64,000 nt of DNA from Nocardioides terrae (GTDB lineage: Bacteria > Actinomycetota > Actinomycetes > Propionibacteriales > Nocardioidaceae), in the NCBI RefSeq assembly GCF_900112345.1, contig NZ_FOLB01000008.1:62001-126000 (forward strand), written 5' to 3'. Under the pieces are notes generated by a model that saw nothing but the letters and a program-made list of their open reading frames with translations, was not told the DNA's origin and made no database searches. A program made the position numbers and the translations under genes. Numbering within the stretch: position 1 is the first letter of the stretch; each line of letters opens with the position of its first letter. Positions 14 to 10,779 of the stretch are shown here, piece by piece.

Positions 14-1048
14 GTGAACGCCCGGCGGCGCCGGTGGCTCGTCCGCGGGGTGCTCCTCGTGGTGGCCGCCGTGGCCACCGTCGTCGCGGTCCGGCTCATC
101 GGACAGGTCGACTGGGCGGAGGTACGCCGCTCGCTGAACCGCCTGGACTGGTGGCAGGGCCCCGTGCTGATCGGCCTCCTGCTGCTCCGCCAGGTCATCA
201 ACGCGCTGCCGCTCTCGCTCTACATCGCCGGGGTCACGCCCTACCAGGCAACGCTCAACGACCAGGTCGCCATCCTGATGTCGACCGTCGCACCACCGCC
301 GAGCGACCTGGCCCTGCGGACCGCGATGTTCAGCTCCTGGGGCGTCTCCGTCGCCCGCGGCATGACGGGCACGCTGATGAACACCGTGACCTACTACATC
401 GTGCGGTTCAGTGCGCCCGGCGTCGGGCTGGTGATCCTCGTGCTGCGCGGCGATGCCATCGGGATCCGCCTCGTCGACCTGGCCAGCCTCGCCGTGGCCG
501 CCGGCATCGTGGCCATCCTCCTGATGGTGATGCACAGCGAGGCGCTCGCCGCGTCGATCGGAACCCGGGCCGGCAGGACCGCGCGACGGTTCCGTGACGT
601 CGACCCTGCGGCGTGGTCGGCGGCCTGCATCAGGTTCCGCGAGGACGTCGCCGCCCGCTTCGGCTACGGCTTCCCGCGCTCGCTCCTCGCGCTGAGCGGC
701 ATGTTGCTCGTCGACGTCGGCATGCTGATCCTCTGCCTCCGCTTCGTCGGGGTCGGAGCGACAGAGGCGCCGGCGATCGAGGTGGTCGCGGCCTACCTGA
801 TCGCCTACCCGCTCACGCTCTTCCCGTTCTACGGCCTCGGCCTCGTGGACGCCGTCGTCCTGGCCACGGTCACCGCGGTCGGCGGTCACGACGTCGAGGC
901 CACCGCTGTCGCCGGGCTGATCGTGTGGCGAATCTTCATCATCGGTGGGCCGCTGCTGCTCGGCGCCGCATCGCTCGTCCTCTGGCGCCGCGCAGCCGGA
1001 TCCTCGGATCGGATCGGCGGCTCGGCGGAAGGCTCACCCGACCGGTGA
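14..1048 (+). CDS. LPG-synthase-type flippase-like integral membrane protein (UPF0104)
   Basis: A 344-residue polytopic membrane protein of the lysylphosphatidylglycerol synthase transmembrane / UPF0104 family, whose members are thought to act as lipid or glycolipid flippases. Seen: basic N-terminus followed by a membrane segment at about residues 10-27, several more hydrophobic helices, the family-typical APPPSD-then-Arg loop near residue 95 and the PFYGLGLVDA segment near residue 275. The GTG start has an overlapping TGA at 15-17 that could end an upstream gene lying outside the window. The last 15 bases overlap the convergent gene on the other strand. The substrate cannot be deduced. Confidence 0.8.
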   Translation: MNARRRRWLVRGVLLVVAAVATVVAVRLIGQVDWAEVRRSLNRLDWWQGPVLIGLLLLRQVINALPLSLYIAGVTPYQATLNDQVAILMSTVAPPPSDLALRTAMFSSWGVSVARGMTGTLMNTVTYYIVRFSAPGVGLVILVLRGDAIGIRLVDLASLAVAAGIVAILLMVMHSEALAASIGTRAGRTARRFRDVDPAAWSAACIRFREDVAARFGYGFPRSLLALSGMLLVDVGMLILCLRFVGVGATEAPAIEVVAAYLIAYPLTLFPFYGLGLVDAVVLATVTAVGGHDVEATAVAGLIVWRIFIIGGPLLLGAASLVLWRRAAGSSDRIGGSAEGSPDR

Positions 1049-1693
1049 GCCGGCGGACCGGCCGTTCCAGCCGGCGTGCACCGGCGTCATCCAGCTGCGG
1101 AGGAGCCGGACCTGCATCATGGCGCCGATCAGCGCCAGGGCGACGTACGCCGTCCACCACCACCACCGGTCCTGCAGCACGCTGCTGGTGGACTCGTCGG
1201 CGAGGTCGCCAGGGGTCACTGTTCCCGTGAGGAAGACCAGGCCGGTCAGCGTCACGCTGCTGCCGGTGAAGGCGCTGAGCAGCACCAGCAGGATGATCGG
1301 CAGGTCCATCACGAGCGCCCCCAGGCCCAGGACCAGGCCGCTCAGGACCCCGACCAGGGCGACCAGCCACGACCACGACACCCCGAGAGCGACCATGGTG
1401 TCGGTCGCGAGGGTGAAGCCGAACGCGGCCATCGCGACCATGATCGCGACCTCGTAGACGGTGTAGGCGACGGTCGCGAAGAGGACGCCGACCACGACGG
1501 CGGCCAGGAACGCCACCGCGTCGGCCAGGAACCGCTCACCTGTGACGGCCGCGATGGACCCGGCGCCGACGAAGGCGCCGACGAGGCCGGCCCACAGGGC
1601 GATCAGGAGCCGCATCACGACCGCCCCACGCAGGCACAGGACGAGGCCGACCACCAGCGTGGCGAGGCCGATGACGAAGCCGGACCAGGTCAT
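1034..1693 (-). CDS. Small multi-pass membrane protein, DUF4203-like
   Basis: About 219 residues, almost entirely hydrophobic, with roughly seven predicted membrane helices and glycine-rich turns, resembling the DUF4203/TMEM198-type family. The ATG at 1693 is preferred because translation upstream of it (to 1843) is Arg/Pro/Ser-rich, unlike a membrane protein N-terminus, while the hydrophobic protein begins right after MTWSGF. It overlaps the convergent flippase-like gene by 15 bp at the 3' ends. Function unknown; only the membrane topology is secure. Confidence 0.65.
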   Translation of the reverse strand: MTWSGFVIGLATLVVGLVLCLRGAVVMRLLIALWAGLVGAFVGAGSIAAVTGERFLADAVAFLAAVVVGVLFATVAYTVYEVAIMVAMAAFGFTLATDTMVALGVSWSWLVALVGVLSGLVLGLGALVMDLPIILLVLLSAFTGSSVTLTGLVFLTGTVTPGDLADESTSSVLQDRWWWWTAYVALALIGAMMQVRLLRSWMTPVHAGWNGRSAGSPVG

Positions 1694-1856
1694 CGGAGCA
1701 CGAGCGGACCAGGACGGCCAGCGCCCGAGCCGACCCGGATGCGGACGAGTCGCATGTCCCACGTCCCTTCCGGCGCCCGGCCGGCACCCCGCCGTCACCC
1801 AACAGGTCACATCATCGGACCACCGCGGCCCGGGCGGGCACACCTGAAACGGGTGA

Positions 1857-1882: not shown

Positions 1883-4561
1883 TCAGGCGCGCAGCAGCTG
1901 GGCCAGAGCCTGCCGGCGCAGCCGCCGCCACTCCACGAGGGCGAGGAGCAGAACGCCGACCAGCACGGTCGCGACGACCACGGCGAGGGACCACGGCAGG
2001 ACGAGCGCAGGTGTGCCGGTCCCACCGGTGATCGACCCGAGCGACATCAGACCGAACATCGCCGACGCGGCGCCGATCCCGAGGGCGAGCCCGGCGAGGA
2101 CGGCGACGACGGCAGGGATCAGCAGCTCGCCGACCAGGACCTTGCGCAGGTCGCCGCCGGCGAGCCCGAGGGAGCGGAGCCGACCGAGGGACGCACCCCG
2201 GGCGGGTCCCTGGGTGGCGGCCGCGAGCGACACCCCCAGGAGCGCGACGAGCATCAGCAGCACGGCGGAGGCGACGGCCAGCCGGACCAGGCCCGAGGAC
2301 AGCGGCGCGCGCCGCCGCTCCTGGAGGACATCGGTGTAGGTGACGACCGTGCCGGAGGGTCCGGCGTCGGCCTTCACCGCGGCCGCTGCGCCGGGCCCGA
2401 CCGCCCAGACCGTGTTCGGGTCCGCAACGGCGCCGGCGGCGGCGAACGCCTTCGAGTCCACGACCACCACCGGGCCGACCGACGCGTCGACCCTCGGCGC
2501 CTCACCGACCACGACGAGAGGGATCCGCGCCTTCTCCCACTGCACGGCGAGGCTGTCGCGCAGGTCGGCGTCGTCGCCGAGCAGCAACGCCGGCACGCGC
2601 GCGTCCTCCCTCGACGCGGCACGGAGGCGCTCGAGGTCGGTGCTGTCCGACGGTGCGAACGTGGCGACGATCCGTGCGTAGGCCGTCGCGTCGACGACGA
2701 CCAACCGCACCGGCTCCGCGCTGCGCTCCGAGGACGCGGGCACGTCGTCGGCGACTCGAGCGGCCACGGCGGCCTGGACGCCAGGTGCTGCGGCGACCGA
2801 TCGCGCGGTGTCCGCCACGGCAGGGTCGGGCGGGGCGGTCAGCCGGGCGTCGCCGCCGACGGCCAGCATCGCCCCAGCGGCCTGGCCCTCCCGCTCGCTC
2901 GCGGCGAGGACCAGGCCGAAGGTGAGCTGGGCGACGGCCACCGCCACCACGAGCAGCGGCAGCGCACGGGCACCGGCCTCCGCCAGTCGGGCCGCGACGA
3001 GGAAGCGGACGTCCCCGCTCGAGCGGCGCGTGGCTCGCAGCGTCAGCCGGATCGCCCGGGGCAGCAGCCGGACGACGACGACCGTGCCCGCCACCGCCCA
3101 CCACAGCGCAGCACTGGCGGCCGTGAGATCCCCGACGCCACGCTGGCGCAGGGCGACGAACGAGAGCACCGCGGCCCCCAGGACGGCGACCTCGGCCCCG
3201 AGTCGCTGCAGGCGTCGCGCACGGATGGCGATGCGGCGCGCCGACCGGTTGGCCGGGACCCGGCGCGCGCTCGTCGCGCGGGCAGCGGCGACGGCGCCCA
3301 GGATCGGCGTCGCCGTCGCCGCGACGACGAGCACCGGCACCGACCAGGCCCAGCTCGCGTCACCGACGAGCAGCCAGGTGGTCGCCAGGCCGACCGCGGC
3401 GCCGGCCACCGCCACCAGCAGCGCCTCGACGAGGAGCTCGAGCCCGACGCCGAGGAGGGACGCGCCTCGCTCGCGAGCCTGGATCACGGAGCCGCGGCGG
3501 CGGTCGACGAGCAGCTGGGCCGCGAGCACGAGCACCAGGAGCGCGGAGGCGAGCAGCCCGACGAGCAGCACCTGCGCCTGTCCCTGCGCCGCCGTGACCT
3601 GGGCGCGGCCGTCGTCCAGCACCCGGACGAGGAGGCTGTCCCAGGTGGGGGCGTCCTGGGACGTGCCCCGCGACGACTGCAACGCTCCGATCGCCCGCTG
3701 CACCGCCTCGGTGTCGTGCCACCGCAGCTGCGACGGCTCCGGGTCGAAGATCACCCGGTAGCTCAGGTCGTCCGCCGGTACGCCGACGCGCAGGTCCGGC
3801 AGCGACGCGACCGACACCAAGGCGGCCGCCGAGGCCGTCGGCACGCCGTCGGCCACGCCCACGGCCGGGTCCAGCAGCTGGGGGGAGGTCTGCCACGCAT
3901 CAGCTTCCGCATCGGTCGCGGTGTAGACGCCGGTGACGTGGACGGAGAAGCGGCGGTGGTGCTCGTCCTCGGCCGGCACCCGGTCGCCGGCATGAAGGCC
4001 GAGCGCCGTGGCCGCGGCCTGCGACAGGGCGACCTGCACCGGCCAGGGCTGGGCGCCGGGCCGGACGGTCAGGGAGGCGCGTGCGCGACCGACGCTCGCC
4101 TTCGGTGCACCGCCCGCACCGTAGGTCACCCCCGGCGGGCCGTGAGGCGTGTCGACGTACACCAGCCGCAGGTAGCGTCCGGGCCCGTCGTCGAGCAGCT
4201 GCAGGGGCGGCGTGCTGAGGGTGGCGACGCCCGGACGCAGCACGGACTCGAGGACAGGTGGCAGCAGGTACTGCGCATACTCGGCGTCCTGGCGCAGCTT
4301 CACGTCGGAGAGCGGGTCTCGCTGGGCGCCCCTCGGGTCGTCGTACCCCGTGGGCGCGGTGGCCACCACCTGGCTGCGCGTGCCGGCGTCGCGCACCGTC
4401 GCGGCGATCGCGCGGTCGGCGGTGCGCTCGCCCAGCGGCTCGACCGAGGCGGTCAGTGCGACCGTCACCGCCACCACGAGTCCGGTGAGGACGAGGAGCC
4501 CGGGGTCGCTCCGCATGCGTCCGCGGATCGTCGCCCCGTGCAGGTGCGATCGGAACCTCAT
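1883..4561 (-). CDS. FtsX-like ABC transporter permease (second permease of operon)
   Basis: An 892-residue permease of the MacB/FtsX superfamily. A first membrane helix lies at about residues 23-42, followed by a large extracytoplasmic domain, a central block of helices (about 330-560), a second extracytoplasmic domain and three C-terminal helices (about 770-885) ending in the usual basic tail. The duplicated plan (two FtsX modules in one chain) is typical of actinobacterial export or mechanotransmission ABC systems rather than solute importers. The ATG overlaps the TGA of the preceding permease by 4 bp, so the two are translationally coupled and probably form a heterodimer with the two upstream ATPases. 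The substrate is not predictable. Confidence 0.85.
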   Translation of the reverse strand: MRFRSHLHGATIRGRMRSDPGLLVLTGLVVAVTVALTASVEPLGERTADRAIAATVRDAGTRSQVVATAPTGYDDPRGAQRDPLSDVKLRQDAEYAQYLLPPVLESVLRPGVATLSTPPLQLLDDGPGRYLRLVYVDTPHGPPGVTYGAGGAPKASVGRARASLTVRPGAQPWPVQVALSQAAATALGLHAGDRVPAEDEHHRRFSVHVTGVYTATDAEADAWQTSPQLLDPAVGVADGVPTASAAALVSVASLPDLRVGVPADDLSYRVIFDPEPSQLRWHDTEAVQRAIGALQSSRGTSQDAPTWDSLLVRVLDDGRAQVTAAQGQAQVLLVGLLASALLVLVLAAQLLVDRRRGSVIQARERGASLLGVGLELLVEALLVAVAGAAVGLATTWLLVGDASWAWSVPVLVVAATATPILGAVAAARATSARRVPANRSARRIAIRARRLQRLGAEVAVLGAAVLSFVALRQRGVGDLTAASAALWWAVAGTVVVVRLLPRAIRLTLRATRRSSGDVRFLVAARLAEAGARALPLLVVAVAVAQLTFGLVLAASEREGQAAGAMLAVGGDARLTAPPDPAVADTARSVAAAPGVQAAVAARVADDVPASSERSAEPVRLVVVDATAYARIVATFAPSDSTDLERLRAASREDARVPALLLGDDADLRDSLAVQWEKARIPLVVVGEAPRVDASVGPVVVVDSKAFAAAGAVADPNTVWAVGPGAAAAVKADAGPSGTVVTYTDVLQERRRAPLSSGLVRLAVASAVLLMLVALLGVSLAAATQGPARGASLGRLRSLGLAGGDLRKVLVGELLIPAVVAVLAGLALGIGAASAMFGLMSLGSITGGTGTPALVLPWSLAVVVATVLVGVLLLALVEWRRLRRQALAQLLRA

Positions 4562-7500
4562 AGGTCACCCGCCCGGAGGTCGGCAGGGCCGGAGCGACTG
4601 ACCTGGCGCGCCGTGAGGACGGCGGTCACGACGAGCGCGGCGACCAGCAGCCCGCCTCCGAGCAGGGTCTCCGCCGCCCACGGCAGCGCGACGACCGCGC
4701 TGGGGACGGGGGCGGCGCCGACGTCGGACCGGATGAGCTGCGGACCGACCACGACGGCCCCCAGGATCCCGACGAGCGCGCCCACCAGCATCAGCGGCAC
4801 GATGAAGACGGCGTGCTCGACGAGCAGCACCCGTCGGGCCCCGCGGCGGGTCAGTCCGAGCGCGCGCAGACGGGCGACGTCGGCCGAGCGCCGCTGCGCG
4901 TCGGCGCTGAGCACGAGGCCGACGCCCGCCAGGAACATCAGCCCGGCGGCGACCACGAGCACCGCGAGCGCGGTGGGGACCGTGACGCGCAACGGCCCGT
5001 GGCTCATCTGCGCGGCGACCTGCTGCCGCGTCGTCACCTCACCCAGGTGGGTGCCACGCAACACGCGCACCAGGTCCGGCGCCGGACGGGCGAACCACCA
5101 GGCGTCCACGACCGGGTCGAGCCGGCCCGCGTCGATGAGCGACCGCGTGAGGGTGTCGATGTCGGCGAGCACGGCCACCCGTCCGGGAGCCGACGGCACG
5201 TCCGGCACGACCGCGACCACCCGCAGCGGCACGGCCGCGTCGCCGACGGTGGCCGCGAGGGTGCCGCCGACCTTCGTGCCGACGGCGTCGACGAGGTCCT
5301 GCGAGACGGCAACCGGCACGTCGGCCGGTGGCGCGAACGCCGTCGCCAGCACGGACGCGCCGGTGAAGGTGAAGTACTCGAGGTCGATCCCGGTCGTCGC
5401 GGTCAGTGCGACGCCACCGGTGCGCGACTCCACCGAGACCGTCGCACCGCGCACCGGGCTGTCGCGCTGGAGGCTCAGCAGCCTCCAGGCCGGGTCGGAG
5501 CCAGCCGTCGCGCCCGGGATGTCGAGGGTCACCGAGACCTCGCCCGTCGCGACGTTGCCGGCTCCCGAGTCGGGCACGGTGCCGGGGTCGCCGTCCAGGT
5601 CGAGGCGTACGGCGACCAGGCGGGCGCCCGCCCCGATCTGACCGCGCCAGTCCACCGGATGCGGGCGGCCGTCCAGCGGTAGCGTGGCGGCCACGACCGA
5701 GCTCCGGAACCCGGACGGGTCCTGGACCACGGCGGTCACGGACGCCGTGATCGAGGAGTGGTCCGGTGCCCGGCCGGTGGCCTCGATGCCCGCGCCGGCC
5801 TCGGGCAGCGGCAACCCCTCGACCGCAGCGTCAGGTGCCAGGTCGGCCCCGACCGACGCCCAGCTCCGACCGGGCTCGAGACGTCCACGGAGCAGCGCGC
5901 CCGCGTGCCTGGTGTCGAGGGCGACGAGCGCAGGTGGCGAGCCGGGATCGCCGAGGAAGCTGCCCAGCGCCAGCGGGGTGTCGACGACCGGGGAGGCGGC
6001 CGTGGTCGCCGCACCGCTCGCCGCACCGCTCGCCGCCACCGCCGCCGCCACCGCCATCGCGTCCTGCGGGACGGCCGGGGCGGGCAGGGCGAGCGACAGG
6101 TCGGTCCCCACGCGCAGCGCGGTCTGGTCCTCCTGCGAGCGTCCCCACGTCGATCGCAGGGCGAGCCCGAAGACCGCCGTCGCGACGGCGGCCGCGATCA
6201 GCACCATCGCGGTCCCGACGTGCGGGCGTCGCGCGGCCTGCTGGGCCGCCAGTGGCACGAGGAGGCCGCGCGACGCGCCGCCCGCCCGAGCCGAGCCGGA
6301 GAGCAGCAGGGGTACGAGACGCACCGCCATCACCGTGGCAGCGGCGAGGCAGAGGACCGGCGCCACCGTGAGCGTGACGTCACCGCGGGCGTCCGTCGAC
6401 GAGGGCTGGGTGTGCAGCTGCCACCAACCGACGACCGCCAGCGCCACCAGCAGCACGCCGCTGCCCGCGCGGACCACCGACCGGCCCCGTGGGTGCCGGT
6501 CGGTTGCGGTCTGCGAGTCCTGCACGGTGACCACCAGCGTCAGGGCAAGCACGAGGGCCCCGGCCACGACCGTGAGCACCAGCCCCCCGGTGACCGTCGG
6601 TGACTGGGTGAGCCCTGCTGCGCGCAGGCTCGCGAGCCGGCTGAGTCGGGCGTGGACCAGCGAGGCCGCGGGAACGGCCAGCACTGCCGCGACGGCCGCC
6701 ACCACCACCGCCTCGACCAGGGCGGCCACGATCTGCTGTCGCCGGCTCAGCCCGAAGGAGATCAGCAGCGCGCGCTCCTCGTCGCGGAGCGAGGCCAGCA
6801 GCCAACCGGCGAGCAGCGCGGCCGCGAGGGACAGCGTGGTGCTCAGCACGAGCAGCACCAGCACGGTGGACCGCGTGGTCGCCTGCTGCGCGTGGATCCG
6901 GTCGAGCGTCTCCGGGAGGTCCGAGGCCACCCGGGTGATGCGGGCCTCCCCGGTGAGCTGGGAGGTCAGCAGGCCGTCGGCGTGGTCGAGCGAGTCCACC
7001 GCGGTCCGCAGGGACGGCGCGTCGGCCAGCGACAGCCGGGGGTGGGCGGTGACGCGCATCCCCGTCACCGACGAGTCCGTGCTCGACAACGTCGCGTCGC
7101 TGACCAGGAACGGGCCGTAGGCCGGTGCGGTCAACGAACCGTCGCTGTAGGTCGCGTCGAAGCCCTCGCCGGAGAGCGGGTCACCCTGCCAGCCGGCGCG
7201 GTCCCGCGGACGGAAGGTGCCGACGACCCTGACGCTCACCGGGCGGTCGGTGCCCCCGAGGCCGACCTCCTGCCCGAGCGTCACCCGGTCGCCCGGTCGC
7301 AGGCCGAGGAGGCGTGCCGCGGTGTCGGGCACCACGGCCTCCGGCGGCCCGGTCGGGTCGTCGGTCGGCCAGCGCCCCGACATCAGCTCGGCCGCCCGCG
7401 TCAGGGCGTCGCCCGAAGCCAGGTAGGCCAGTCGGTCGCCGTCACCCAGCCGCCGCATCCGTGCGGTCACGGCGCTGGTCACGGTCGGACGCATCGGGGC

Positions 7501-7758
7501 GAGCAGCCCTGTGACGACGCCGTCGGCCTGTCGGCGGGCATGCGCCACGTCGGGGCCGGCGACGTCGACGACGTACGCCGTCACGTCCACGTCCCGCGGC
7601 TGCGAGCGCAGGATCTCGACGTGGAAGGCGCGCTCCTGCGTGACGCTCAGCAGCAGCGTGCAGACGCCGAGCAGGCTCGCGGCCACCGCGACGAGCACGA
7701 CCGCTGCCGCCAGCACCCGCCACTGGACGAGGGCACGCCGGCAGACCAGGGCTAGCAC
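4558..7758 (-). CDS. FtsX-like ABC transporter permease (first permease of operon)
   Basis: A very large permease (about 1066 residues from the chosen start) with the same two-module FtsX architecture as its partner. It has an N-terminal helix, a long extracytoplasmic domain (about 50-320), a helix cluster (about 320-560), a second periplasm-facing domain and a C-terminal helix trio with the FtsX-like hydrophobic LALGL-type motif. The GTG at 7758 is chosen because it lies 10 bp after the ATPase stop and directly precedes the membrane-targeting region. An in-frame GTG at 7806 would overlap the ATPase gene by 38 bp and add 16 hydrophilic residues. It is coupled to the next permease by ATGA. Confidence 0.82.
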   Translation of the reverse strand: MLALVCRRALVQWRVLAAAVVLVAVAASLLGVCTLLLSVTQERAFHVEILRSQPRDVDVTAYVVDVAGPDVAHARRQADGVVTGLLAPMRPTVTSAVTARMRRLGDGDRLAYLASGDALTRAAELMSGRWPTDDPTGPPEAVVPDTAARLLGLRPGDRVTLGQEVGLGGTDRPVSVRVVGTFRPRDRAGWQGDPLSGEGFDATYSDGSLTAPAYGPFLVSDATLSSTDSSVTGMRVTAHPRLSLADAPSLRTAVDSLDHADGLLTSQLTGEARITRVASDLPETLDRIHAQQATTRSTVLVLLVLSTTLSLAAALLAGWLLASLRDEERALLISFGLSRRQQIVAALVEAVVVAAVAAVLAVPAASLVHARLSRLASLRAAGLTQSPTVTGGLVLTVVAGALVLALTLVVTVQDSQTATDRHPRGRSVVRAGSGVLLVALAVVGWWQLHTQPSSTDARGDVTLTVAPVLCLAAATVMAVRLVPLLLSGSARAGGASRGLLVPLAAQQAARRPHVGTAMVLIAAAVATAVFGLALRSTWGRSQEDQTALRVGTDLSLALPAPAVPQDAMAVAAAVAASGAASGAATTAASPVVDTPLALGSFLGDPGSPPALVALDTRHAGALLRGRLEPGRSWASVGADLAPDAAVEGLPLPEAGAGIEATGRAPDHSSITASVTAVVQDPSGFRSSVVAATLPLDGRPHPVDWRGQIGAGARLVAVRLDLDGDPGTVPDSGAGNVATGEVSVTLDIPGATAGSDPAWRLLSLQRDSPVRGATVSVESRTGGVALTATTGIDLEYFTFTGASVLATAFAPPADVPVAVSQDLVDAVGTKVGGTLAATVGDAAVPLRVVAVVPDVPSAPGRVAVLADIDTLTRSLIDAGRLDPVVDAWWFARPAPDLVRVLRGTHLGEVTTRQQVAAQMSHGPLRVTVPTALAVLVVAAGLMFLAGVGLVLSADAQRRSADVARLRALGLTRRGARRVLLVEHAVFIVPLMLVGALVGILGAVVVGPQLIRSDVGAAPVPSAVVALPWAAETLLGGGLLVAALVVTAVLTARQVSRSGPADLRAGDL

Positions 7759-7768
7759 GCGGGTGCCA

Positions 7769-8455
7769 TCAGAGGTGGACCCGACCGTCCGCGATCCTGA
7801 GCACACGGTCGGCGAGCGACATCATCACGGGGTCGTGGGTCGCCACGACGGCGGTGACGCCCTCGGACTCGACGACGGCGCGCAGGAGCGCCATCACCGA
7901 GAGCCCGGTCTCGGCGTCGAGCTGCCCCGTCGGCTCGTCGGCCAGCAGCAGCCGCGGCGATCCGGCCAGGGCGCGGGCGATCCCGACCCGCTGCTGCTGG
8001 CCGCCGGACAGCTCCGACGGTCGCTGCAGCTCGTGGCCGCGCATCCCGACGAGGTCGAGCAGGAGGGCGACGCGCTGCTCGCGGTCGGCGACCGGCGTAC
8101 GACGCATGCGCAGCGGCACCCCGACGTTCTCGGCCGCGGTGAGCGCGGGGATCAGCCCGAAGGTCTGGAAGACGTAGGAGATCGAGTCGCGCCGCAGCCG
8201 GCTCAGGCCCTCGTCGTCGAGGGCGGTCACCTCGGTGCCGTCCAGGCGCACCGAGCCCTCGTCCGGTCGGTCGAGACCGCCGACCAGGTTGAGCAGCGTG
8301 GTCTTGCCCGAGCCCGAGCGGCCCACCACCGCGACCATCTCTCCCGGCGCCACGTCGAAGGAGACCTCGCGCAGAGCGTGCGTCGTCCCCGGGCCGGAGC
8401 CGTAGGTGCGCGACAGCCCGCGTACGGCGACCATCGGCTCGACGGGGGCGCTCAC
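7769..8455 (-). CDS. ABC transporter ATP-binding protein (LolD/MacB type)
   Basis: A 228-residue nucleotide-binding subunit. Walker A is GRSGSGKTT (about residues 45-53), the Q-loop lies in VFQTFGLIPALTA, the signature is LSGGQQQRVGIARAL, and Walker B is LLLADEPTG followed by the H-loop THD. The DEPTG and FQ..L.P.LTA..NV pattern places it in the LolD/MacB/FtsE class that works with FtsX-type permeases. The ATG overlaps the stop of the upstream ATPase by 4 bp. With that second, longer ATPase it probably forms an asymmetric NBD pair powering the two permeases encoded downstream. Confidence 0.92.
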   Translation of the reverse strand: MSAPVEPMVAVRGLSRTYGSGPGTTHALREVSFDVAPGEMVAVVGRSGSGKTTLLNLVGGLDRPDEGSVRLDGTEVTALDDEGLSRLRRDSISYVFQTFGLIPALTAAENVGVPLRMRRTPVADREQRVALLLDLVGMRGHELQRPSELSGGQQQRVGIARALAGSPRLLLADEPTGQLDAETGLSVMALLRAVVESEGVTAVVATHDPVMMSLADRVLRIADGRVHL

Positions 8456-9381
8456 TCCTCCTCGTCCCTGTCGGAGCGGATCTCGACATGGTCCTGGGCG
8501 AGCGCGATCCGCACCCGACGAGTGAGGTCGAGCGCCTCCCGGAACTCCCGCGGCACCTGCACCCGTCCCGCGCGGTCCATGACGGCGTACTCCTCGGCGG
8601 CGCCGGGCGCGCCCTCCGTGTCCGCGCTGCGCAGCACCTCGCTGCTGGTGCGGCCGTCCCGGATGGCGACCGTGCGTGCCACCTGGCCGCTCACCGCGGC
8701 GTCGTGGGTCACGACCACGACGGTGGCGCCGAGGTCGCGGTTGGCGGTGCGCAACGCGGCGAACACGTCGGAGGCGGTCTCGCTGTCCAGCTCGCCGGTC
8801 GGCTCGTCGGCCAGCAGCACCTTCGGCCGGTTGGCGAGCGCGACGGCGATCGCGACCCGCTGCTGCTCGCCGCCCGACATCTCCTGCGGCCGACGATGGG
8901 CGCAGTGGGCGACACCGAGGGTCTCGAGCAGCGTCTCCGTGCGCTCCCGCCGGTCCTTGCGGGCGGTGCCGGCGATCGTCATCGGGAGGTCCACAACCTG
9001 GCTCGCCGTCAGGTAGGGGACCAGGTTGCGGGCCGCCTGCTGCCGGACGAAGCCGACGACGTGCCGCCGGAACCGCACCCGGTCCGAACGTGACATGTCC
9101 ACCAGGTCGTGGCCCGCCACCCGCGCGCGGCCGGCCGTCGGCGCATCCACGCCGGCGAGGACCTGGAGCAGCGTCGACTTGCCCGAGCCCGACGCACCGA
9201 CGATGGCGACCATCTCGCCGTCATGGATCAGCAGGTCGAGTCCCTGCAGGGCCTGCACCTCGACGCTGTCCGTCTGATAGATGCGGACCAGGTTGTCGCA
9301 CACGACGAGGGCGTCGTGCCCGAACTCGGGAGCGTGCCGGGGACCGGCCGGAAGGGTCAGTACCGGATCGGTCATCCGCAT
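8452..9381 (-). CDS. ABC ATPase with a C-terminal AbrB/SpoVT-like domain
   Basis: First gene of the leftward four-gene ABC operon, 309 residues. The ATPase core carries Walker A GASGSGKST (62-70), signature MSGGEQQRV (168-175), Walker B VLLADEPTG (188-196) and H-loop VTHD. After the core (about residue 245) comes a short linker and an unusual tail (264-302) reading DRAGRVQVPREFREALDL then a short beta-like end. It matches the swapped-hairpin AbrB/MazE/SpoVT pattern, in which a Gly-Arg-hydrophobic strand is followed by the P.E.REAL helix. Such domains bind DNA in AbrB and MazE; here it may serve dimerisation or autoregulation instead. A TAGCAT minus-10-like box sits about 30 bp upstream of the ATG. 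Confidence 0.88.
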   Translation of the reverse strand: MRMTDPVLTLPAGPRHAPEFGHDALVVCDNLVRIYQTDSVEVQALQGLDLLIHDGEMVAIVGASGSGKSTLLQVLAGVDAPTAGRARVAGHDLVDMSRSDRVRFRRHVVGFVRQQAARNLVPYLTASQVVDLPMTIAGTARKDRRERTETLLETLGVAHCAHRRPQEMSGGEQQRVAIAVALANRPKVLLADEPTGELDSETASDVFAALRTANRDLGATVVVVTHDAAVSGQVARTVAIRDGRTSSEVLRSADTEGAPGAAEEYAVMDRAGRVQVPREFREALDLTRRVRIALAQDHVEIRSDRDEEE

Positions 9382-9594
9382 GTTCTCCGCCCTGGCGAGG
9401 TGTGCCTGCCGATGCTAGCCACTCCGGTCGTCGTGCGGATGCCGATTCCGGCGTCCGACGCGCGGGCTTTCGACCCCTGGCCGAGCCGAGTCGACGGCGC
9501 GGGCCGAGCAAGCACCCCACGAGCCAGGGCCGCCTCGGGGTGATCGGCGGGCGATCTCCTCGCGCCGCTCGCCCCGGTCCGCGAGGATCACCCC

Positions 9595-10779
9595 GTGAAG
9601 CGAACGTCCAGCAGCGCGATCAGGGAGTCCAACCGGTCGAGCGTCGTCGAGATGCTGCGGCGCCACGGGGCGATGACCCGGGCGGACCTGGCGGCCGCCA
9701 CGGGCCTGTCGCGGGCCACCATCTCCAGTCTCCTCACACAGCTGAGCACGGCCGGGATGATCACCGAGCACCGTCCCCCGACGGAGGGTGGGACGGGGCG
9801 GCCGTCCGCGCTCGTCTCGCTCGATCGGACGGCGGGGCTCGCGATCGCCGTGGACATCGGCGTGCGGCACGTCGCCGTCGCCGTCGGGGACCTGTCCCGC
9901 CGGGTGCTGGCCGAGCGGTGGGTGCCGCTCCCGCACGGTCACTCGGCGGACGCCGGGATCGCGACGGTCCTCGACTGCATCGACCAGACGACGGCCGAGG
10001 CCGACGCCCGCCGCGACCAGATCATGGGAGCGGCGATCAGCATCGCCGCACCGGTGCCTCGGACGGAGCGACGACTCGCGGTCCCGGGCGTGCTGCCGGG
10101 CTGGAACAGTGCGGCCCTGGCGTCCGCGGTGGGGGAGCGGTGGGACGTCCCGGTCGCCGTGGAGAACGATGCGAACGCCGGTGCGCTGGGCGAGTCGACG
10201 TTCGGGGTCCTGGCCGGCGCGCCGAGCCTGGTCTACGTCAAGCTCGCCAGTCGGGTGGGGCTCGGGTGCGTGCTCGAGGGGTCGCTCTACCGCGGCGGCG
10301 GCGGCTTCGCCGGCGAGCTCGGCCACATCACCGTCGACCTAGACGGGGAGCGGTGCTGGTGCGGCCTCCGCGGCTGCCTCGAGCTGTACGCCGGCGGGGA
10401 CGGCCTCCTGCGCCGGCTGGACCGCGCCGGCGCCCGGGTCGAGGACATCGCCGACCTGGTCCGACGGGCGCACGACGGGGACGCGGCCGTGCTGAGGGCG
10501 GTCGCCGACGGGGCCCGCATGCTGGCGGTCGGCCTGTCCAGCGTGGCGCTGCTCCTGAACCCGTCCGCCATCGTGATCGGCGGCGAGCTGGCCGAGCTGG
10601 GCGAGCTGCTGCTCGGGCCCATCCGACAGCAGCTCGCGGAGATTCCCTTCGGCCCTCCGACGGAGGTGGTGCGCTCGACGCTGGGCGACCGGGCGTCGAT
10701 GGTCGGCGCGCTCGCACTCGTGCTCACGGAGTCCCGTCGCTTCGGCGACCGTTCCGGCTCGGTCGCTCCGTCGGCCTGA
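9595..10779 (+). CDS. ROK-family transcriptional regulator
   Basis: A 394-residue NagC/XylR-type ROK repressor. An N-terminal winged HTH (about residues 10-70, with RADLAAATGLSRATISSLL) is followed by the ROK fold. The ROK zinc motif GHITV then CWCGLRGCLELYAGG (about 245-265) is intact, as is the phosphate-binding DIG motif of the ancestral kinase. It is divergent from the ABC operon and convergent with the GH31 gene, so it could control either or act on an unlinked sugar regulon; the latter cannot be decided here. The GTG start is preceded by a 213-bp intergenic region that may hold its operator, but I saw no convincing palindrome there. Confidence 0.88.
   Translation: MKRTSSSAIRESNRSSVVEMLRRHGAMTRADLAAATGLSRATISSLLTQLSTAGMITEHRPPTEGGTGRPSALVSLDRTAGLAIAVDIGVRHVAVAVGDLSRRVLAERWVPLPHGHSADAGIATVLDCIDQTTAEADARRDQIMGAAISIAAPVPRTERRLAVPGVLPGWNSAALASAVGERWDVPVAVENDANAGALGESTFGVLAGAPSLVYVKLASRVGLGCVLEGSLYRGGGGFAGELGHITVDLDGERCWCGLRGCLELYAGGDGLLRRLDRAGARVEDIADLVRRAHDGDAAVLRAVADGARMLAVGLSSVALLLNPSAIVIGGELAELGELLLGPIRQQLAEIPFGPPTEVVRSTLGDRASMVGALALVLTESRRFGDRSGSVAPSA

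Follow-up and report, generated by a model that had tools for sequence, protein, structure and literature searches.

The window, a stretch of 64,000 nucleotides of Nocardioides terrae (contig NZ_FOLB01000008.1, positions 62,001 to 126,000), carries near its start genes for two ABC ATPases, here termed ATP1 and ATP2, followed on the same strand by genes for two FtsX-type permeases, a and b:

9412–9417, minus strand: TAGCAT, resembling a −10 hexamer and lying upstream of ATP1; by eye, 9 of 18 Nocardioidaceae upstream regions contain it.
8452–9381, minus strand: ATP1, an ABC ATPase of 309 amino acids with a predicted AbrB/MraZ-type C-terminal tail; ATG start.
8650–9306, minus strand: nucleotide-binding domain of ATP1 (residues 26–244), MacB/LolD-like.
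8593–8646, minus strand: variable linker of ATP1 (residues 246–263), mean column entropy 1.18 bits.
8467–8592, minus strand: predicted AbrB/MraZ-type tail of ATP1 (residues 264–305, 42 residues), mean column entropy 0.64 bits.
7769–8455, minus strand: ATP2, the tail-less ABC ATPase partner; its GTG start overlaps the ATP1 stop by 4 nt.
4558–7806, minus strand: FtsX-type permease a, 1082 amino acids, 10 hydrophobic segments, two FtsX matches; its start codon is uncertain and it overlaps ATP2.
1883–4561, minus strand: FtsX-type permease b, 892 amino acids, 10 hydrophobic segments, two FtsX matches; its ATG overlaps the stop of permease a by 4 nt.

Judged from its sequence, ATP1 is a complete MacB/LolD-like ABC ATPase carrying an AbrB/MraZ-type C-terminal domain. 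It matches the Pfam ABC_tran model at 7.4e-34, and by eye its Walker A, signature and Walker B motifs and its switch histidine are all intact. The top NCBIfam models are MacB, LolD, DarD, YbbA and FtsE, each scoring below that model's own cut-off; with the FtsX permease partners, these models place ATP1 among the MacB/LolD/FtsE-type ATPases of type VII systems. Such systems use two identical ATPases per complex, whereas the cluster described here has two different ones, and ATP1 bears its additional tail. The permeases also differ in having two FtsX matches each and hydrophobic segments spaced, in both proteins, as one, a long gap, six, a long gap and three; the two large gaps probably correspond to outer domains. 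A 10-TM permease is likewise found in BceAB-type transporters; PMC5985334 interprets BceB as two MacB architectures fused together, the first outer domain having been lost. BceB, however, works with a single ATPase, BceA, in contrast to the two ATPases and the two putative outer domains here.

Other reading frames flank these genes. Downstream of permease b, a 269-residue frame (1034–1843, minus strand) matches the Pfam TM7S3/TM198-like family at 7.8e-07, just above the cut-off, and may form the end of the operon. A 344-residue frame (14–1048, plus strand) resembles the membrane region of lysylphosphatidylglycerol synthase, below the Pfam cut-off. Divergent from ATP1 lies a gene for a ROK-family regulator with a winged helix (9595–10779, plus strand). 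It was considered as a partner of ATP1 and rejected: a match was found in one of 80 loci, more than 4 kb away and not adjoining ATP1.

The tail of ATP1 resembles the AbrB/MazE/SpoVT and MraZ domains (Pfam PF04014 and PF02381) in its length of about 42 residues, in a D-x-x-G-R-x-x-x-P motif and in profile–profile matches. It fits the pattern D-x-x-G-[RQ]-x-x-[VIL]-P, which we take to be the hairpin–helix motif of the AbrB/MraZ swapped-hairpin superfamily. The Pfam MraZ model has a cut-off (gathering score) of 23 bits; the isolated tail exceeds it at three lengths (23.9 bits for 63 amino acids, 24.6 for 52 and 23.8 for 42), while within full-length ATP1 the tail scores 19.8 bits and falls below it. 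When the bacterium's own genome was scanned with this model, the two halves of a genuine MraZ were followed by the ATP1 tail, which falls short of the cut-off at 22.3 bits; in a scan of the same genome with the MazE model, the tail was not among the matches at E ≤ 1. MraZ is matched at E ≤ 0.1 by 43 of 43 tails of A2, the wider clade around the window's ATP1, and by 13 of 15 tails of the more diverse A1. Distant tails generally score below Pfam cut-offs: that of Streptomyces clavuligerus matches MraZ at 0.011, that of locus L124 matches it weakly (0.028), a Paenibacillus tail narrowly misses the MazE cut-off at 1.3e-4, and the most distant actinobacterial tail, L126, matches no Pfam family at E ≤ 1. 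Ten shuffled tails were made and eight of them scanned; none of the eight matched MraZ or MazE at E ≤ 0.1, and two gave weak matches to unrelated families.

A profile of the tail matched in 18 of 396 genomes, a lower bound because the best 18 first-look candidates per genome were scored. ABC tails were found in 14 of these genomes (the window and L115 included), and the other four had only MraZ/AbrB-type proteins. The profile also gave six weaker matches to other proteins, which Pfam calls MraZ (three) or MazE (three). The ATP1 tail nevertheless differs from these domains: it is fused to an ABC ATPase and consists of one AbrB-like half only, where MraZ has two halves per chain, and the tails have an invariant glutamine at β2 and, outside the window's clade, have lost the helix arginine.

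Profile–profile comparison with HHalign gave a similar picture. A set of 18 diverse tails aligned to full-length MraZ with a probability of 95.6% (over 38 columns of its second half) and to the first half of MraZ with 91.1%; the MraZ set comprised 34 sequences from 35 loci, three loci having come from the tail profile and two lying on one gene. The same tails matched an AbrB/MazE set found by Pfam at 94.9%, although this set, being the 18 of 29 loci with the motif near the centre by motif scan, is biased towards the motif. Column shuffles reached at most 1.3% (n = 50, full MraZ) and 9.6% (n = 100, AbrB/MazE), and the reversed profile 6.2%. A five-sequence AbrB set gave 97.4%, but its shuffles reached 46.3% (n = 50) and its members had been picked by the tail profile or the tail itself, so it was set aside as evidence. 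An AbrB/MraZ identity for the tail is, in our estimation, highly probable.

It had been predicted that a swapped-hairpin fold would be found in a structure model of the tail, and here the results are mixed. AlphaFold2 gave a poor model of full ATP1 (47-row alignment; mean pLDDT 59.8), in which the tail has a helix at 278–284 and strands at 290–294 and 299–303, with block pLDDT of only 25–39. The tail alone (43 rows) was modelled with a mean pLDDT of 75.5, a pTM of 0.42 and middle blocks at 81–88, as a single helix over residues 278–295, where AbrB has its helix and then a strand. Both models are weak; the tail-alone model does not reproduce the helix-then-strands order of the full model and, putting helix where a strand is expected, speaks against an AbrB fold so far as such a prediction goes. 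A Foldseek search with this weak model gave no significant match (best E 3.3; SpoVT E 5.2). The helix over 278–295 would suit a tail that is an unrelated extension of the ATPase, as would the failure of phmmer and hmmsearch to match the tail protein among solved-structure sequences, and the L126 tail without a Pfam match. Such a reading is very improbable, however, given profile–profile scores far above shuffles and reversal, the MraZ matches of nearly all A2 and A1 tails and the MazE match of the Paenibacillus tail.

The tail is as well conserved as the ATPase (0.64 and 0.71 bits per column, respectively, against 1.18 for the linker, over 96 distinct rows). This alignment excludes the L016 ATPase, which reads out of frame before its middle; L016 is the tail-bearing ATPase of genome G061, and its out-of-frame first half reflects a frameshift in the gene or the assembly. 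Among 260 relatives from a scan of species genomes, the best 80 were kept, all Actinomycetota by record title, with identities of 65–89%, and the tail is present in 80 of these 80, one of the six relative-search patterns having lain within it. The window's family has matches in 22 of 149 genomes, two of which (L029 and L030) are AbrB-type proteins and not ABC tails. Outside Actinomycetota, a single plasmid record showed the fusion, that of Paenibacillus cellulosilyticus, where a 291-residue ATPase has the same tail (46.9% identity over residues 25–301). In an ATPase tree of 53 rows, 27 of them with the tail, the tail label changes once (support 94/78), as recovered in 94% of 200 bootstrap trees. 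This tree, which lacks ATPases missed by the motif filter (for example L003, L005 and L006 of the own genome), and in which both G381 rows have very long branches and both Paenibacillus rows were flagged for odd composition, needs a single origin of the tail.

The fusion is real and, within its family, ordinary. The original prediction of a complete ATPase with an AbrB-like tail in an FtsX-type system is borne out by the profiles, the conservation and the one-origin tree; its boundaries for the tail (264–302) were correct to within a few residues, and the search that it proposed for the same fusion succeeded both in the kept relatives and in the Paenibacillus plasmid. Here the motor of a membrane machine has acquired an AbrB/MraZ-type domain, which actinobacteria of many genera have retained. 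Among the top matches in the open-licence literature, by title and abstract opening, no description of an AbrB- or MraZ-tailed ABC ATPase was found.

In all of the 80 loci ATP2 adjoins ATP1, downstream on the same strand, and permeases a and b are present in 74 of 74 and 72 of 72 loci with enough flank; beyond those 80 loci gene order varies, and at L172, L174 and L178 no ATP2 orthologue lies inside the fetched stretch. At the level of genomes, an ATP2 orthologue was found in all 15 tail-bearing genomes tested and in none of 18 tail-less ones. All of an initial eight tail-bearing genomes had one (best match 56–66% identity); a further 25 genomes comprised 7 with the tail, all of which had the orthologue, and 18 lacking the tail, none of which had it (E ≤ 1e-62, a cut-off chosen after the eight-genome result, with at most 116 first-look candidates scored per genome), the absence of the tail in 10 out-of-genus genomes resting on the scan of 396. 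In two genomes the genes are unlinked: ATP1 and ATP2 are separated by about 2.9 Mb in G481 and sit on different contigs in G516, and in neither genome does a match to FtsX or the window's permeases adjoin ATP2. The reading frames with 10 TM segments found some kilobases from the unlinked ATP2 encode amino-acid permeases. In G381 and Paenibacillus, one permease accompanies both ATPases in the stretch seen. These findings suggest that some FtsX/MacB-type systems employ two different ATPases.

The original prediction had also suggested autoregulation, with the tail binding DNA so that the ATPase could repress or sense its own promoter. Known members of the family bind DNA, which speaks for the idea. 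Positions of DNA contact are named in PMC4022651, and AbrB residue numbers (R8, R15, R23 and R24) were mapped onto the tails by the G-R anchor. The equivalent of Arg15 is present in 53 of 53 distinct tails. That of Arg23 is present in 39 of 53 distinct tails and in 42 of 43 A2 tails, but outside A2 none of 13 distinct tails has it, compared with 18 of 18 AbrB/MazE and 59 of 60 MraZ domains, and position 9 is basic in none of 43 and none of 18 tails, compared with 5 of 18 AbrB/MazE and 30 of 60 MraZ domains. Hardly any tail has equivalents of R8 and R24, but these are rare in the control sets too, and their absence was dropped as an argument. Two residues after Arg15, all 53 distinct tails have a glutamine, which none of 78 AbrB/MraZ domains has there. 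By strand alternation, this glutamine should lie on the outer face of β2, close to where AbrB is proposed to contact DNA, suggesting that this face is conserved for something other than DNA. The upstream regions point the same way. Pairs of TGGG (MraZ-type) boxes occur in 0 of 80 (the window and 79 loci; shuffles mean 3.8), and no shared operator was seen upstream of ATP1, where within Nocardioidaceae no 10-mer is common beyond the level of shuffles. Across all 80 regions, whose limits depend on script-guessed start codons, 10-mers are common to up to 20 of 80 (shuffles at most 5); this set holds many close relatives, and its 10-mers could hide a site in another clade. In the window, scans for promoters by consensus, repeats and terminators upstream of ATP1 gave no promoter and no operator, and 9382–9594 contains a single, distant 10-nt inverted pair. 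Autoregulation through its own promoter thus finds no support, and promoter binding by the tail is disfavoured by these sequence comparisons; we regard it as decidedly improbable, although within A2, which keeps the Arg23 equivalent, DNA binding retains some likelihood.

A role in joining proteins appears more promising. An AbrB-type half makes a barrel only together with a second copy, and in our tentatively preferred reading the tail, as one half of an AbrB/MraZ swapped-hairpin barrel, would serve as a protein-joining module. ATP1 would be one of two different ATPases driving large FtsX/MacB-type (type VII-like) permeases, and ATP1 and ATP2 would form a mixed pair beneath a permease that already contains two FtsX modules; retention of both ATPases in the one-permease clusters of Paenibacillus and G381, and the occurrence of ATP2 in tail-bearing genomes even where it is unlinked, argue indirectly for such a pair. 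Each mixed motor pair would then carry one half-barrel, and since the fold needs two copies, the partner would have to come from another complex. That partner would be the tail of another ATP1, so that a complex built on permease a meets one built on permease b or, in clusters with a single permease, two copies of one complex meet; this would tether, and possibly synchronise, the two transporters and so provide a simple physical link between them. Two separate homodimers, serving two permeases, would also explain the co-occurrence of ATP1 and ATP2. As a whole, the picture of a two-phylum type VII-like ABC family in which mixed ATPase pairs, their half-barrels closing across complexes, couple two different FtsX permeases is on the doubtful side.

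Two other roles for the tail are close rivals to joining complexes, whereas promoter binding is less likely. The MalK C-terminal regulatory domain joins ATPases and can bind a regulator (MalT); like the ATP1 tail it is a C-terminal domain on an ABC ATPase, although its fold is unrelated and it belongs to an importer family. By analogy, two copies of ATP1 might sit under one permease, their tails closing below them to lock or gate the ATPase dimer, with ATP2 serving the other permease. A linker of about 18 residues would fit such local pairing, two ATPases and two permeases are present in the 72 loci long enough for both, and the fold is a dimer in known members (a dimer and a tetramer are spoken of in PMC4022651). 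One-permease clusters that retain both ATPases, and the two genomes in which ATP2 persists without an adjoining FtsX permease, speak against the idea, which we consider unlikely. Dimer locking, also raised in the original prediction, thus keeps some plausibility, but the constant presence of a second ATPase without a tail makes a link between two complexes likelier than one between the halves of a single complex. Alternatively, the tail may be a docking site for another protein, perhaps the cell's own AbrB/MraZ-type regulator, so that the transporter would control transcription by holding the regulator, as MalK does with MalT; envelope transport would then be linked to transcription. The invariant β2 glutamine suggests a specific partner and a normal two-half MraZ is encoded elsewhere in the genome, but the neighbouring ROK gene has a match in just 1 of 80 loci, not beside ATP1, and the probability of docking is, in our judgement, low.

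The Paenibacillus cluster (L177:4317–11444) encodes a tail-less ATPase, an HlyD-type adaptor, an FtsX/MacB permease, the AbrB-tailed ATPase and a solute-binding protein, and so combines an exporter-type motor with a binding protein of importer type. L210 and L211, from two genomes of one genus, are lone ATP2 orthologues with a similar neighbourhood away from ATP1, comprising sensor-like and TrkA-like reading frames (by eye) and an amino-acid permease (by Pfam).
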